64,000 bases of DNA from Pontiella agarivorans (GTDB lineage Bacteria; Verrucomicrobiota; Kiritimatiellia; Kiritimatiellales; Pontiellaceae), in contig NZ_JARVCO010000012.1 of the NCBI RefSeq assembly GCF_034531395.1, positions 186,001-250,000 of the forward strand, given 5' to 3'. A model generated the notes under the pieces. That model saw nothing but the letters and a program-made list of their open reading frames with translations. It was not told where the DNA came from and ran no database searches. Positions 2,461-8,583 of this stretch are shown here, piece by piece (the stretch's first letter is position 1; each line of letters opens with the position of its first letter). The translations under genes and the position numbers were made by a program.

Positions 2461-3723
2461 ATGAAACTTCCGATTTCACTTTTTCTGGCCGTTAAATACC
2501 TGAAGCCGAAGCGGTCGATGGTGTCGTTTATCACGATTCTGACGATGTGCGGCATTATGCTGGGCGTTGCAATTCTTATTGTGGTGCTTTCGGTGATGAC
2601 CGGTTTTGATGATGTGCACAAAGAGCATATGATCAAGCTGGACTCGCATATCCAGGTTTCGACCCGCGGAAATTCCACGTTCTATGCGCAGCCGGTTCTG
2701 GAGGTCCTGAGTGAAATGCCGGAGATCAAAGCGGCAGCCCCGGCGGTTGAAGGTTTTGTGATGATGACGCGCTACGGTCAGGCGATTACGGCCGTGCTGC
2801 GAGGCGTTGAGCCGGAACTGGAAAAAGAGATTTCCGATATTGAATCGTATCTGGTTGAAGGCGAACTCCCGCTGGAGGAGGAAACCGTGGTGGTCGGCAG
2901 TCGGCTGGCGATGCAGCTTGGCGTGGGGATCGGCGATACGATCACCGTTTATTCGCCGGAATGTTTTGTAAGCGAAGATGAACTGCGGCTTCCGGCAGAG
3001 CTGACTGTGGTCGGTATTTTTTCGGTGGATATGTATGAGATTGATTCCCAGTTCATGATCTCTTCACTACCTACCGCACGCGATGTGTTTGCCCTCGAAG
3101 AGGGCGTGGAGACATTGCGGCTGATTACAGAAGATCCGTTTACGGTCGATGAAACCGGCCGTAAAATCCGTGAAAAACTCGGTGAGGCCATGTTGGCCGA
3201 CGACAGTCTCAACTGGTTCCGTTTTCTGACCACCCGGTCGTGGGTGGAAATTCATCAGAATATGCTCAGTACGCTGGCGGTGGAAAAAAATATGATGTTT
3301 CTGCTGTTGATTGCGATTTCCGTTGTGGCGGCCTTCTGTGTTTCGATCAATCTGATCAATATGGGCATTCAGAAAACGCATGAAATCGGCCTGTTGAAGG
3401 CGGTGGGTTTTTCTTCCGGAAAAATTGTCGGTATTTTTCTGTTTCTCGGGATTGTACAGGGGGTGCTGGGCTGCGTGCTGGGTTCTGCATTGGGCATCTG
3501 GTTTTCCGGGAATCTGGATGCGATTCTCGAATTTCTCCGTCGGTTCAATCCGAACCTGATGTCGGCAGAGTTTTATCAGTTCAGCCAGATGCCTTCACGC
3601 ACGACGTCGGAAGATGTGGTTCTCGTCTGCATCATTGTCATGGTGTTCAGCATTCTGGCGGGTGTACTTCCTGCCATTCGGGCAGCGCTGATGCAGCCGG
3701 TTGATGCGTTGAGGTATGAATGA
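2461..3723 (+). CDS. LolC/LolE-type ABC transporter permease
   Basis: Inner-membrane permease of the MacB/FtsX fold, 420 residues. One membrane helix lies near residues 20-45, then a large periplasmic domain (about 50-265), then three helices near 275-300, 320-350 and 385-410. The start MKLPISLFLAVKYL and the segment GIMLGVAILIVVLSVMTGF are typical of LolC/E, which extract lipoproteins from the inner membrane. No LolD ATPase lies next to it; the nearest ATPase is MlaF, two genes downstream. It overlaps the next gene by ATGA, which implies translational coupling. It could be an unassigned FtsX-family permease rather than a true Lol component. Confidence 0.85.
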   Translation: MKLPISLFLAVKYLKPKRSMVSFITILTMCGIMLGVAILIVVLSVMTGFDDVHKEHMIKLDSHIQVSTRGNSTFYAQPVLEVLSEMPEIKAAAPAVEGFVMMTRYGQAITAVLRGVEPELEKEISDIESYLVEGELPLEEETVVVGSRLAMQLGVGIGDTITVYSPECFVSEDELRLPAELTVVGIFSVDMYEIDSQFMISSLPTARDVFALEEGVETLRLITEDPFTVDETGRKIREKLGEAMLADDSLNWFRFLTTRSWVEIHQNMLSTLAVEKNMMFLLLIAISVVAAFCVSINLINMGIQKTHEIGLLKAVGFSSGKIVGIFLFLGIVQGVLGCVLGSALGIWFSGNLDAILEFLRRFNPNLMSAEFYQFSQMPSRTTSEDVVLVCIIVMVFSILAGVLPAIRAALMQPVDALRYE

Positions 3724-5018
3724 GGCGGTTGCTGGTCAGTCTGGCTTGTGTTTTGTCGGTCAGCACCTTTGCGCAGATCGACGGCGACCCGCTCTATGCC
3801 CGCGTTGCAGAGAGTAATGAAACGTTTTATGCCTGGCGTCCGTTCTATTCTCACTCCACGGAACCGGAGCGCTGGCGTAAGGATTATTTCTGGCCGCTTT
3901 ACACCCGTAAAGGGTTCAAGGATGAAACGTACAGCCGTTTTCTGTTTTTCGGACATTCCGCCGATTTTGAGCGGGATACGGAGCGGCACCGAAACTGGAT
4001 TTTTCCAATCTGGTTCAGCGGTACCAGTAAAGAAGGGGAAAATTATTGGGCGCTTTTTCCAATCTATGGAAATCTCTATGAATTTATGGCGCGCGATGAA
4101 GCTTCGTTTGTGCTTTTTCCCGCCTGGTACACCAGCCGGATCAACGACGTGGAATCGTGGACGGTGCTCTGGCCGCTGATTTCGTCGGCACAAGGTGAAA
4201 AAGTCGACCGCTTCCGGGTGCTTCCGTTTTACGGACATAACCGGCTTAAAGGTGAATTTGAAAAGACCTATTATCTGTGGCCGCTTTACAGTCAGGTCAG
4301 GTATACCAACGAGCGCAATCCCGGCGGCGGGTTTATTCTGGTGCCGTTTTATGGACGGATCAAAACTGAGCGGGCGGATAATTATTGGGTGCTTCCTCCG
4401 TTTTTCCGTTATACGGGCAGTGACAAGCAGTGGATTCTGCATGCGCCATGGCCGTTTGTTCAGCTCGCCGGCGGGGAAATGAATAAGCGCATTTTCTGGC
4501 CGTTCTACGGGAAAAAATCGCTCGGCACGACGCAGCGCCAGTACTGGCTCTGGCCGCTGTTCTGGAACAATAAGACCACCTATGCCGCGCATGAGCAGCG
4601 ACGCCGGAAAATCATTCCGTTTTTTTATTCTCAGGCCGATGTCATGACCGAAGCTTCCGGGTCGTATGCGGAAGGTGAGGCATTTACCGGTTATTGGAAA
4701 CTGTGGCCGCTGATGAGCTGGGACCGGATCGGTGAGCGGTCGCGTTTCCGGACACTGGAACTTTGGCCTTTTCGGAATACACCGGGTATTGAACGGAACT
4801 GGGCACCGTGGTGGACGCTGTACCGGCGGGTCGATGATCAGGGCGAGATCGGGCATCATGTTCTGTGGGGATTATACCGGCAGGTGCGTGATAAAGAGGA
4901 GGAGCAGTTTGAATGGAGCTTGCTCAAGGGATTGGCGGGCTATAAAAAGGAGCAGGATGATCGCCGGTACCGAATTCTCTTCGTGTGGTTCGGCGGAAAT
5001 AAGGAGTCGGAACCATAA
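3720..5018 (+). CDS. Exported tryptophan-rich WPxY repeat protein, unknown function
   Basis: Not recognised. The 432 residues begin with a clear signal peptide (MRRLLVSLACVLSVSTFAQ). The mature part is built of about 17 short repeats centred on an aromatic-Pro-aromatic core: FWPLYTRK, IFPIWFSG, LFPIYGNL, VLPFYGHN, LWPLYSQV, LVPFYGRI, FWPFYGKK, LWPLFWNN, IIPFFYSQ and others, spaced roughly 20-25 residues. Tryptophan, tyrosine and phenylalanine are strikingly frequent and cysteine is absent. This suggests a regular beta structure (barrel, propeller or solenoid) in the periplasm or outer membrane. It overlaps the upstream permease by ATGA and lies 20 bases before mlaE, so it is probably an accessory of the lipid-transport operon (inference). 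Confidence 0.85.
   Translation: MRRLLVSLACVLSVSTFAQIDGDPLYARVAESNETFYAWRPFYSHSTEPERWRKDYFWPLYTRKGFKDETYSRFLFFGHSADFERDTERHRNWIFPIWFSGTSKEGENYWALFPIYGNLYEFMARDEASFVLFPAWYTSRINDVESWTVLWPLISSAQGEKVDRFRVLPFYGHNRLKGEFEKTYYLWPLYSQVRYTNERNPGGGFILVPFYGRIKTERADNYWVLPPFFRYTGSDKQWILHAPWPFVQLAGGEMNKRIFWPFYGKKSLGTTQRQYWLWPLFWNNKTTYAAHEQRRRKIIPFFYSQADVMTEASGSYAEGEAFTGYWKLWPLMSWDRIGERSRFRTLELWPFRNTPGIERNWAPWWTLYRRVDDQGEIGHHVLWGLYRQVRDKEEEQFEWSLLKGLAGYKKEQDDRRYRILFVWFGGNKESEP
4057..4071. repeat. TTCCA-N5-TGGAA palindrome, centre ATCTA
   Basis: Inside the Trp-repeat protein gene. Codons read FPIYG, so the frame is TT-CCA. Confidence 0.8.
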
Positions 5019-5038
5019 CACGTCTTCACATAGATTAT

Positions 5039-5827
5039 ATGCGCTATCCGGTGCATTCGGCCCAGCGGCTGGGGGCGAGGGTACTGCAGGTGCTGCACGA
5101 TACCGGGCACGCCATGTTCATGCTGTTTGAGGCCATATGGTTTCTACGGTATGCATTCGGTAAACGCAGTCGGGCTGAAACCGTTTCGCAGCTGTATGTC
5201 ACCGGGATTAAGAGCCTCGCGGTTATTTCCGTGGTGGCGCTCTTCACCGGGATGATTCTTGCCTTGCAGACCGGCCTTGAGCTTAAGCGCTGGGGGCAGG
5301 AGGAATTTATCGGGTCCGCAGTGGCTGTTTCCATTATTCGCGAAATGGGACCGTTCATGACGGCGCTGATCATTGCCGCCAGTGTCGGATCGGCCATTGC
5401 CGCGCAGCTTGGAACCATGACGGTTTCGGAAGAGATTGCCGCGCTTGAGGTGATGAGCATCAATCCCAACCGCTTTCTTGTGATGCCGCGGTTGTTTGCG
5501 CTGTGTGTCATGATGCCGGTGCTTGCGGTGTATACCAACATTCTCGGGATTGTCGGCGGAGCGATTGTCGGAGCAACGCAGCTGGGCGTTTCTGTAACGG
5601 CCTACATGGATAACGCCACGCAGTTTGCCACGAATAAAGATCTGTATGTCGGGCTTTTTAAAGCATTCGTTTTCGGAATCATCATTACCACCGTCTCCTG
5701 TCATCAGGGATTTATGACCACCGAAGGCGCGGTGGGGGTGGGGAAAGCCACGCGGCGCTCCGTCGTCATTTCCTTTCTGGTGATTCTGGTGGTGGGCTAC
5801 ATGATAACAAGGCTGTTTTACGTATGA
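5039..5827 (+). CDS. mlaE: MlaE-family lipid ABC transporter permease
   Basis: Integral membrane permease of the MlaFEDB/MCE phospholipid transporter family, 262 residues with five to six hydrophobic segments. Family signatures are visible: FTGMILALQTGLELKRWG, REMGPFMTALIIAASVGSA, EIAALEVMSINPNRFLVMPR and the C-terminal VGVGKATRRSVV. It overlaps mlaF by ATGA (5824-5827). With mlaF and mlaD downstream it makes the core of a transporter moving phospholipids between inner and outer membranes. No MlaA, MlaB or MlaC homologue is seen in the operon. Confidence 0.95.
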   Translation: MRYPVHSAQRLGARVLQVLHDTGHAMFMLFEAIWFLRYAFGKRSRAETVSQLYVTGIKSLAVISVVALFTGMILALQTGLELKRWGQEEFIGSAVAVSIIREMGPFMTALIIAASVGSAIAAQLGTMTVSEEIAALEVMSINPNRFLVMPRLFALCVMMPVLAVYTNILGIVGGAIVGATQLGVSVTAYMDNATQFATNKDLYVGLFKAFVFGIIITTVSCHQGFMTTEGAVGVGKATRRSVVISFLVILVVGYMITRLFYV

Positions 5828-6588
5828 TCAGGTTTGATCAGGTTACAAAAAAACTGGGAAGCCGGAACGTACTCGACGGTGTCAGTTTCGAGGTCGGGGA
5901 AGGCGAGACTTTTGTGGTTGTGGGTCTTTCCGGAGCCGGGAAAAGCGTTACGCTCAAGCACATGATCCGTCTCATGCTTCCGGATTCCGGAACTGTATCG
6001 ATTGACGGCGAAATCATTAACGATCTGAACCGGCGGAGCCTTCGGTCGGTTCGCGAAAAATTCGGGGTGTTGTTCCAGAGTGCGGCCCTGCTGCAGTGGA
6101 TGAGTGTGCGTGACAATGTAGCCCTTCCGCTGCGTGAACATACAAAACTTGAAGACGCGGAGATTCTCCAACGGGTGGATGAAAAGCTGGAACTGCTCGG
6201 TCTCGGCGATGCCGGCGATAAGTTTCCGTCGGATATTTCCGGCGGGATGCAGAAACGCGCCGGTCTGGCGCGCGCCATTATCATGGATCCGAAGATTGTG
6301 CTTTATGATGAGCCGACGTCCGGGCTGGACCCGGTGACCTCCCGGCGAATCGATGATTTAATCGTGGATATGCGTAAAAAGCTCGGTATAACGAGTGTTG
6401 TTGTGACCCACGACCTGCACAGTGCGCTGGCCATCGGTTCGCGTATTATGATGCTGCATCAGGGCAGGATTGTGGAAAATGCTGCACCGGCTGATTTTAT
6501 CCGGTCGAAAAATGAAACGGTGCAGAGCTTTCTTGAGTCGCAATACATTACGAAGAGAGGCCGGTGGGAAGAGTTTAGTCATGAATAA
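5824..6588 (+). CDS. mlaF: MlaF-family ABC transporter ATP-binding protein
   Basis: Cytoplasmic ATPase of the MCE-type lipid transporter, 254 residues. Walker A is GLSGAGKS (about residues 38-45), the ABC signature is SGGMQKRAGLARA, Walker B is IVLYDEPTSGLDP, and the H-loop is VVVTHD. The GMQKR version of the signature is characteristic of MlaF-type ATPases. It starts inside mlaE (ATGA overlap), and mlaD starts inside its 3' end, so the three proteins are translationally coupled. Confidence 0.95.
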   Translation: MIRFDQVTKKLGSRNVLDGVSFEVGEGETFVVVGLSGAGKSVTLKHMIRLMLPDSGTVSIDGEIINDLNRRSLRSVREKFGVLFQSAALLQWMSVRDNVALPLREHTKLEDAEILQRVDEKLELLGLGDAGDKFPSDISGGMQKRAGLARAIIMDPKIVLYDEPTSGLDPVTSRRIDDLIVDMRKKLGITSVVVTHDLHSALAIGSRIMMLHQGRIVENAAPADFIRSKNETVQSFLESQYITKRGRWEEFSHE

Positions 6589-7510
6589 ATTCAGCCGTGA
6601 AGTCAGCGTTGAGATCCTGGTGGGTCTTTTTATGTTTGTGGTGCTCATTGCCCTCAGCGTTTTTACCATTGTACTCAGCCGTGAAAAGCTGTGGAGCGAG
6701 AGTTATCAGTATGAATTCATTTTCACTGAAGTCGGCGGTCTGCGCGAGGGCGATGGGGTTTATCTGCGCGGCATGAATGTCGGCCGCGTGAAGCAGACCG
6801 CGCTTGAAGACAGCCGGGTGCATGTTTATGTCACGATGGATGTTCCGCTCCAGCTGCGTCATGGGTATAAGATTGAAATTGTCGATGCGTCGATGCTCGG
6901 CGGAAAATACCTGAAAATCTACGAGGGGCCTGAAGACGCACCGCTGCTGGGGGAAAATGTGACGATTCTCGGTTCCAAACCGGTTGATATGATTGCCGAA
7001 CTTTCCGAAGCCGTCGATGGGCTGCAGCGCATGATTAAATCCGTGGAAAGCGGTCAGGGGACGCTGGGCCAGCTTTTGAACGACGATACCATGTATAATA
7101 ACATGGCGGTGCTGGCAGAAGATCTGAAGGGGATTGTCGGCCGTGTTGCCGAAGGGCAGGGCACAGTGGGTAAGCTGCTCACCGACGAAGCCGTCTATAA
7201 CGATGCTTCGGCAATGATGGCAAACCTGCGTATGGTTTCCGACCGGATTGCCAAGGGCGAGAGCACCATGGGTAAACTGCTTTCGGAAGATTCGGAGCTC
7301 TATGAGAACTTCGATGCCACCATGGCTGCGGCACGGGCGATTGCTGAGGGCATCAACCAGGGTGAAGGCACGCTTGGCCTGCTGGTGCGCGATGCCAAGC
7401 TGTACAATGAAACTACACTGTTGGTTGAAGATGTCCGCGCCGCCGTTGATGACCTGCGTGAAGCATCGCCGGTAACCTCGTTCGGCAGTGTGCTCTTTGG
7501 TGCGTTTTAG
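6581..7510 (+). CDS. mlaD: MlaD-type MCE-domain lipid-binding protein with C-terminal repeats
   Basis: Periplasmic MCE protein anchored by one N-terminal helix (about residues 10-32), 309 residues. The single MCE domain (about 42-118) has the usual FTEVGGLREGDGVYLRGMNVG core. A longer tail follows in which a motif of form GxGTxGxLLxDxxxYxN recurs four times near residues 158, 191, 226 and 262. Such helical tails in longer MCE proteins can form a tunnel. The ATG at 6581 was preferred to the upstream in-frame codon at 6470 because it begins at the anchor helix and overlaps mlaF by only 8 bases. Confidence 0.93.
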   Translation: MNKFSREVSVEILVGLFMFVVLIALSVFTIVLSREKLWSESYQYEFIFTEVGGLREGDGVYLRGMNVGRVKQTALEDSRVHVYVTMDVPLQLRHGYKIEIVDASMLGGKYLKIYEGPEDAPLLGENVTILGSKPVDMIAELSEAVDGLQRMIKSVESGQGTLGQLLNDDTMYNNMAVLAEDLKGIVGRVAEGQGTVGKLLTDEAVYNDASAMMANLRMVSDRIAKGESTMGKLLSEDSELYENFDATMAAARAIAEGINQGEGTLGLLVRDAKLYNETTLLVEDVRAAVDDLREASPVTSFGSVLFGAF

Positions 7511-7518
7511 CAAATGGG

Positions 7519-8583
7519 ATGAAGGCCTTTCCACAGTTTGGAAAAACGGTTCGCTGTTCCGGATGCGGAGAAATTGTTGAGCGCAGCGATCGGTGCGCAA
7601 ACTGCGGTGTGCGTTTGAAGAAACCGTGGGCTTTCGTCACGCGCATGGGGATCTTCTGCGGCCTGATTATTCTCGCGGTTGTGATTTCGCGTGCAGTGAA
7701 CCGCCGCGAACCCGGCACGGTGCATGTGGCCGATATTAAACCCTATATGAATTTCAAACGGGTGCGGATTGAAGGGGTACTGCTTGAACCCGCCCGGGAA
7801 TTGAAAAGCGGTTCTGTTTTTCATCTGGTGCATGATGGAACCGGACAGCTCGCGGTGTTTGTTCCGGCGGTTTCGGTGGATATGCCGCTGCCCGGCGGCG
7901 CCCGTGTGGAAGCCGAGGGAAATCTTCGGGTTGGAGCGGGAAACCGCATCAGTCTCCAGGCAACGACCATCCGGATGACCGGTCAGACGGAATCGGCTGG
8001 TTCCGAGTCCCGGATTTCGCGGATTACACCCGACCGCGAAGGCGAGACGATGCTGGTGAACGGAGTCGTTTCCAGCGTCTGGAAGCCGCGGCCCGATTCA
8101 AAAGCGCCGTACAGAATTGTGCTCGAAGATCCCACCGGCCGGATCGATGTTATCCATTGGCTGGAAAACCCGCCGGAGGTTGAGGAGGGCGAGCCGCTTG
8201 AAGTCACCGGGATTGTTCAGATATATAACGGACGTCTGGAACTCAAGGTGATCCGCGAAGAGTGGATTCAGTGCCCCGGAACGGCTGAGGTGCCGCCGGA
8301 AGAGATTCAGATCGGCGACATCCATGCGCTGATGGAAGGCCGGGTGGTGATTGCGGAGGGGGTGCTGGGGGAACCGCGTTCGATTCCCGGCGGGGTGATT
8401 TATCCTATGTCCGATGATACCGGAACCATTCAGCTGCTCTTCTGGGACAGCCGGGTGTCCGGCGAGGAGCGCGATGCGGTGGATGAGGGACGTCGTTTAC
8501 GGGTGGAGGCCCCGGTTGTTCTTTATAAAGGTACGCTGGAACTGGTGCCCCGGGATGTCGGAGGGTTCCGGGTGCTGGATTAA
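7519..8583 (+). CDS. Zinc-ribbon membrane protein with tandem OB-like domains
   Basis: No exact family recognised, 354 residues. An N-terminal zinc ribbon has two CxxC knuckles (C13/C16 and C26/C29), a membrane helix spans about 38-60, and the rest shows two or three OB-fold-like beta domains. The first is near 70-150 (HVADIKPYMNFKRVRIEGVL), the next near 170-255 and 270-354 (VVIAEGVLGEPRSIPGG). OB-like folds of this kind occur in nucleic-acid-binding proteins, but here they sit behind a membrane helix, so the ligand is open. It starts 8 bases after mlaD and closes the operon. A TTCCA-N5-TGGAA palindrome lies at codons 4-9. Its stop overlaps the convergent CCA-adding enzyme gene. Confidence 0.75.
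   Translation: MKAFPQFGKTVRCSGCGEIVERSDRCANCGVRLKKPWAFVTRMGIFCGLIILAVVISRAVNRREPGTVHVADIKPYMNFKRVRIEGVLLEPARELKSGSVFHLVHDGTGQLAVFVPAVSVDMPLPGGARVEAEGNLRVGAGNRISLQATTIRMTGQTESAGSESRISRITPDREGETMLVNGVVSSVWKPRPDSKAPYRIVLEDPTGRIDVIHWLENPPEVEEGEPLEVTGIVQIYNGRLELKVIREEWIQCPGTAEVPPEEIQIGDIHALMEGRVVIAEGVLGEPRSIPGGVIYPMSDDTGTIQLLFWDSRVSGEERDAVDEGRRLRVEAPVVLYKGTLELVPRDVGGFRVLD
7529..7543. repeat. TTCCA-N5-TGGAA palindrome, centre CAGTT
   Basis: Near the start of the zinc-ribbon/OB gene; codons FPQFG, frame TT-CCA. Confidence 0.8.

Follow-up and report, generated by a model that had tools for sequence, protein, structure and literature searches.

The 64,000-nucleotide stretch of Pontiella agarivorans DNA that was analysed in this work (referred to here as the window) contains an Mla/MCE system, in which an MlaE permease, an MlaF ATPase and an MlaD MCE protein are encoded together; all of the features described below for this locus are on the forward (+) strand. 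The gene of main interest (positions 3720..5018) encodes a repeat protein of 432 aa that is conserved across the phylum and which we will refer to as FWP. The open reading frame, its translation and a signal peptide predicted from the sequence (MRRLLVSLACVLSVSTFA, 3720..3773) agree with the original prediction of a 432-residue exported protein at this place, and in the window copy the signal peptide is without a lipobox Cys. The segment that follows (3774..4994) consists of about 21 repeats of about 18 aa, which are indicated by conserved prolines, a position profile, coevolution and a fragment model. The FWP stop codon and the start of the MlaE gene (5039..5827, 262 aa) are separated by 20 bases, and the earlier assignment of the gene 3' of FWP as mlaE was borne out by its match to Pfam family PF02405 (1.6e-73). 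It is followed by the gene for MlaF (5824..6588, 254 aa; PF00005, 8e-31), whose start overlaps the mlaE stop and which also matches the MlaF model at 2.2e-52, under that model's cut-off. The gene for MlaD (6581..7510; PF02470, 6e-13), found by a search of its own genome, encodes a protein of about 309 aa, provided that an internal ATG is the start, with a single MCE domain and, C-terminal to it, a long region of helix-like repeats.

The genes flanking these four are a LolC/E-like permease on the 5' side and an OB-fold protein on the 3' side. The permease (2461..3723) matches TIGR02212 (9e-87, under cut-off; 291 bits vs the lolCE cut-off of 362) and Pfam FtsX/MacB_PCD, and its stop codon is overlapped by the start codon of FWP (ATGA); in the part of the window that was examined, no LolD lay next to it. 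The OB-fold gene (7519..8583; PF01336) lies 3' of mlaD, a position that synteny showed in close relatives only. A second MCE system is present elsewhere in this genome (locus L293, G000:C2:613500-624500), which has MlaF and MlaD and in which MlaE (4242-5378) is a longer open reading frame of 379 aa, with no FWP alongside.

Repeat architecture and strand pairing of FWP

The pattern P-[LIFVW]-[YFW] is present 13 times in the window FWP vs a mean of 1.5 (maximum 6) in 2000 shuffles, and hydrophobic-P-[LFIVWP]-[YFW] occurs 10 times vs a shuffle mean of 0.6 and a maximum of 4. The x-P-[LFI]-[YFW] repeats reported earlier are therefore real, but the count of about 17 units was too low, as their number is about 21 when degenerate units are included, with a spacing that is mostly 16-21 residues. 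Since at least 17 of the motif prolines are conserved in register among 96 FWP homologues (approximately 82-100%, most of them close to 100%), the repeat number is fixed, in contrast to that of variable surface adhesins. The repeat consensus is R-R-F-A/V-L-W-P-L/F-Y-G/S...D-G, and in the position profile position 0 is Pro in 98% of the repeats and position -1 is aromatic in 71%. As hydrophobic residues predominate on both faces from -4 to +2 and the other positions are polar, a sheet built from these repeats should have one greasy and one polar edge.

The pairing of the strands was examined by mean-field direct coupling analysis of 214 FWP orthologues (effective number 191), averaged over the repeats. 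Two antiparallel ladders were observed per repeat of about 18 residues, the first with its centre between aromatic -1 and Pro 0 and the second about 8.5 residues later, with mean couplings of 0.72 and 0.68 at the two centres vs 0.04-0.13 off register; in four column-shuffled control alignments the mean coupling was -0.05 to 0.10. Almost every link between neighbouring repeats shows a ladder, without alternation (0.90 and 0.90), which weakens beyond residue 330. Some isolated long-range couplings (L25-W364 and others) were also seen, in a background that reaches 5-6 sd. From this pattern, each repeat is predicted to form two strands of about 6-8 residues, or about 42 in all, with the aromatic-Pro turns at one edge of the sheet and polar D/G turns at the other. 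Because no sequence is more prone to form cis-Pro type VI turns than aromatic-Pro, an aromatic-Pro hairpin is the likely turn geometry. A parallel beta-solenoid was rejected, as each repeat has two coupling centres and the pairing is antiparallel; the strand pairing counts less strongly against a barrel or a propeller.

A model of a 126-residue fragment, which is weak (pLDDT 49) and of which the strand positions alone were used, has strands at +2..+7 and -8..-3 relative to several prolines, in agreement with the coevolution ladders. In a Foldseek search this fragment model had no match below E 2.5 and none to a solved fold, and FWP itself did not match an unrelated known fold, such as that of an enzyme. 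The best full-length model, obtained with AlphaFold2 from six sequences, had a pLDDT of only 29 and was discarded; hence, both the new fold and the handling of lipids are matters that we infer.

Comparisons of FWP with Pfam, NCBIfam and PDB, by sequence and by a 40-member profile, gave nothing credible, and the few isolated weak database matches to single members were inconsistent across the family. The MlaA domain (PF04333) was not found in FWP or 39 homologues, and the MlaC domain (PF05494) was not found in FWP or the homologue set. Models for carriers of the AsmA/TamB/LptA type in Pfam and NCBIfam were likewise unmatched by FWP, as were the Pfam models for MORN and choline-binding repeats by FWP and its homologues. 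The bridge-like lipid carriers AsmA, TamB, YhdP and LptA, which have a beta groove, form long meanders with a hydrophobic strip and strands of about 9-10 residues. FWP may resemble them in the antiparallel meander that the coevolution ladders support and in its hydrophobic strip, a comparison that concerns the manner of working only, but it differs in its distinct 18-aa repeat, its aromatic-Pro turn and the absence of a Pfam match. Similarly, MORN and choline-binding repeats are aromatic-rich beta-hairpins of about 20 aa, like the FWP repeats, but they have another motif with no invariant Trp-Pro. No description of FWP was found in the open-access literature, and none of the viral contigs contained it.

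Large proteins with FPLY/WPLY repeats (400-1358 aa) were also observed in many Verrucomicrobiota (loci L258-L273, L276 and L277), where they were recognized by the FWP profile; examples are L260:1315-3612 (-), L264:1018-4317 (-), L268:2064-4598 (-) and L271:1636-5709 (+). Most of them have a lipobox-like start, e.g. ...CSTPSMKGTPFYTGE..., and a Pfam match was absent in the six that were scanned. Against the FWP profile these proteins gave whole-protein E values of 1e-10 to 3e-36. As these large lipoproteins also carry the repeat, the repeat itself is not Mla-specific, and FWP defines a repeat family, common to the large lipoproteins, that is absent from Pfam and NCBIfam.

Distribution of FWP and its linkage to mlaE, mlaF and mlaD

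FWP occurs in 52 of the 58 close genomes and, as a single-copy gene, in 219 of 240 genomes of the Kiritimatiellae, the class of the window. It was also present in 85/120 genomes of another, more distant family of Verrucomicrobiota, and, likewise in single copy, in 127 of the 289 sampled genomes of this phylum after 18 weak matches were discarded. The N terminus of FWP is either a signal peptide or a lipobox, some of the orthologues being of the lipobox type (about 17 genomes with a plausible lipobox, based on pattern matches judged by eye), and the C-termini are non-aromatic. Among the orthologues that are not next to mlaE, several members from families f8, f21 and f23 carry a lipobox, which suggests a lineage-specific switch in the anchoring of FWP.

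The gene order FWP-mlaE-mlaF-mlaD is kept across many families. Of 215 usable locus entries, 185 have mlaE directly 3' of FWP, 23 do not and 7 were too short to judge; the two genes are adjacent in 185/208 genomes with an assessable neighbourhood. The linkage of the homologues to mla genes on which the original prediction depends is thus the general condition. The 23 non-adjacent entries come from 22 genomes (about 11%), as G231 has two unlinked copies; other examples of FWP apart from mlaE are G048, G110, G159 and G384 (f8) and G208, G220, G273 and G286 (f21). Within the FWP-mlaE loci, MlaF is second in 181 of 185 and MlaD is third in 96 of the 98 that reach that far. MlaE was also present in genomes whose FWP is not adjacent to it, and among the 289 sampled genomes it was found in all 127 that contain FWP vs 141 of the 162 that do not (p 3e-6). 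The translational coupling to a LolC/E-like gene that had been noted earlier holds at the window locus, but the permease adjoins FWP in no more than 19 genomes, which all belong to the family of the window. Due to this limited occurrence the adjacency is considered incidental, and the permease was set aside as a functional partner of FWP.

Relationship to MlaA and the proposed role of FWP

The original prediction that MlaA and MlaC are lacking proved to be true of the whole genome and not just of the window, as neither was found in a genome-wide search. Both are absent from 52/57 genomes of the class, and the other five have both, side by side. In the phylum sample (n = 289), FWP and MlaA are both present in 12 genomes, FWP only in 115, MlaA only in 102 and neither in 60, an exclusion for which the Fisher test gives a p value of 5e-22 that is inflated by relatedness. 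The smaller comparisons therefore weigh more. Outside the class the corresponding numbers are 6, 29, 100 and 57 (p 5e-7), and within one family 18 of 19 genomes with FWP lack MlaA, whereas 5/5 without FWP possess it (p 1.4e-4). Within the class alone the exclusion is weak (p 0.05), and it is partly phylogenetic. In two genomes without FWP, the gene after mlaEFD carries PFESVNR, an MlaA-like motif, and the MlaA search matches there.

The operon linkage, the dependence on MlaE, the exclusion with MlaA and the strand pairing pattern are directly supported by these analyses, and in view of the first three of them, an outer-membrane-side partner of MlaEFD is the simplest account of FWP. In E. coli, MlaA (PF04333) and MlaC (PF05494) occupy the side of MlaEFD towards the periplasm and the outer membrane, and it is there that we propose FWP to act, MlaA tending to be missing where FWP occurs. 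Our favoured reading, which we consider reasonably probable, is that FWP is exported, faces the periplasm and belongs to the Mla/MCE pathway for phospholipids in Verrucomicrobiota, where it works with the inner-membrane complex MlaEFD as a substitute for MlaA and MlaC and passes lipid along its hydrophobic strip. The approximately 21 repeats would form one long antiparallel beta meander with two strands each. With regard to its location, contacts and any bridging, we infer that FWP most likely lies on the outer membrane's periplasmic face or reaches towards that membrane, that it may dock on the MlaD hexamer at its tip, and that its strip of Trp, Pro, Leu and Tyr residues could hand on the acyl chains of phospholipids between the outer membrane and MlaD. 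FWP differs from the two proteins that it would replace, a helical lipoprotein (MlaA) and a shuttle (MlaC), in being an all-beta repeat protein that is encoded 5' of mlaE and has no sequence match to either. The earlier suggestion that it is the missing Mla component gains from the absence of MlaA and MlaC, the MlaA exclusion and the co-occurrence with MlaE, but the repeat also occurs in the large lipoproteins.

In a more ambitious form, FWP would be a new type of trans-periplasmic lipid bridge, in which the Trp-Pro edge of a single antiparallel sheet of about 42 strands serves as a continuous hydrophobic track from the MlaD hexamer to the outer membrane, and which evolved independently of AsmA-type grooves and MlaD barrels. 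A bridge is possible since the 42-strand sheet, when extended, would measure about 200 angstrom, near the width of the periplasm; the full proposal is nonetheless doubtful. That FWP is instead a periplasmic assembly or scaffold factor (e.g. one that serves MlaD hexamers or the passage through peptidoglycan) and not a lipid carrier we regard as unlikely. Although the linkage and the dependence on MlaE would suit any partner of MlaEFD, and MORN repeats, likewise beta-hairpins, show that direct lipid binding is hard to establish (PMC7725318), the exclusion with MlaA suggests functional replacement and not assembly, and the conserved positions of FWP form a hydrophobic strip.

There is a rather small chance that FWP is an integral beta-barrel of the outer membrane, as TGD4 or LptD are, with each WPLY unit forming one membrane strand. 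The protein is exported, aromatic-rich and all-beta in its pattern, consecutive units pair in antiparallel manner, and about 21 units of about 18 aa make a plausible barrel size. However, the second antiparallel turn at Trp-Pro within each unit leads to about 42 strands of about 6-8 residues, whereas a barrel of this kind is expected to have one strand of about 10 residues per unit and a C-terminal aromatic residue, neither of which was found in FWP. Further, a lipobox-like start is present in some orthologues and in most of the long paralogues inspected, and like repeats extend to proteins of 1350 aa. In view of the lipobox cases, the short strands and the non-aromatic C terminus, a periplasm-facing FWP is favoured over a membrane barrel. 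A further possibility, that FWP just happens to be co-transcribed with the mla genes and is a beta-propeller or another kind of soluble binder, is highly improbable. FWP is an exported all-beta repeat protein, and the fold search listed a nine-blade propeller that has a repetitive motif, but its E value of 6.5 does not amount to a match. The ladder of FWP is continuous and non-alternating (0.90 and 0.90), unlike four-stranded blades, and the gene order is kept in many families.

The proposed periplasm-facing role may be compared with other systems that dispense with MlaA or MlaC. In Veillonella parvula, an elongated MlaD with a C-terminal barrel bypasses MlaA and MlaC (PMC10665443). The outer membrane would thus be reached without these two proteins in both cases, but in V. 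parvula the bridge is built into MlaD, whereas FWP is a separate gene. In the PVC group, MlaD is reported to be without this C-terminal barrel, the part presumed to reach the outer membrane in other bacteria, and Grasekamp and colleagues left as yet unidentified proteins as a possibility (PMC10665443). In Brucella, whose genome is without MlaC, the Mpc system includes a lipoprotein of the MpcA/PqiC type that is encoded with mlaEFD-like genes (PMC12436622). An extra component on the outer-membrane side, a location that is presumed for FWP, is thus encoded with mlaEFD-like genes in both systems, but MpcA is a homologue of PqiC and last in its operon, whereas FWP is first and has no Pfam match. 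FWP, which is widespread, in conserved order with mlaEFD and found mostly in genomes without MlaA, is therefore a good candidate for the missing component through which MlaEFD can reach the outer membrane, and for a route without MlaA, MlaC or an MlaD barrel it provides a single testable gene.

Many of the 60 genomes (of 289) with neither FWP nor MlaA contain MlaE, including many of family f40, which suggests that yet another outer-membrane solution is present in these species. In families f38, f44 and f50, the MlaA matches lie within open frames of 600-880 codons, far over the length of MlaA, and these are possibly fusion proteins.
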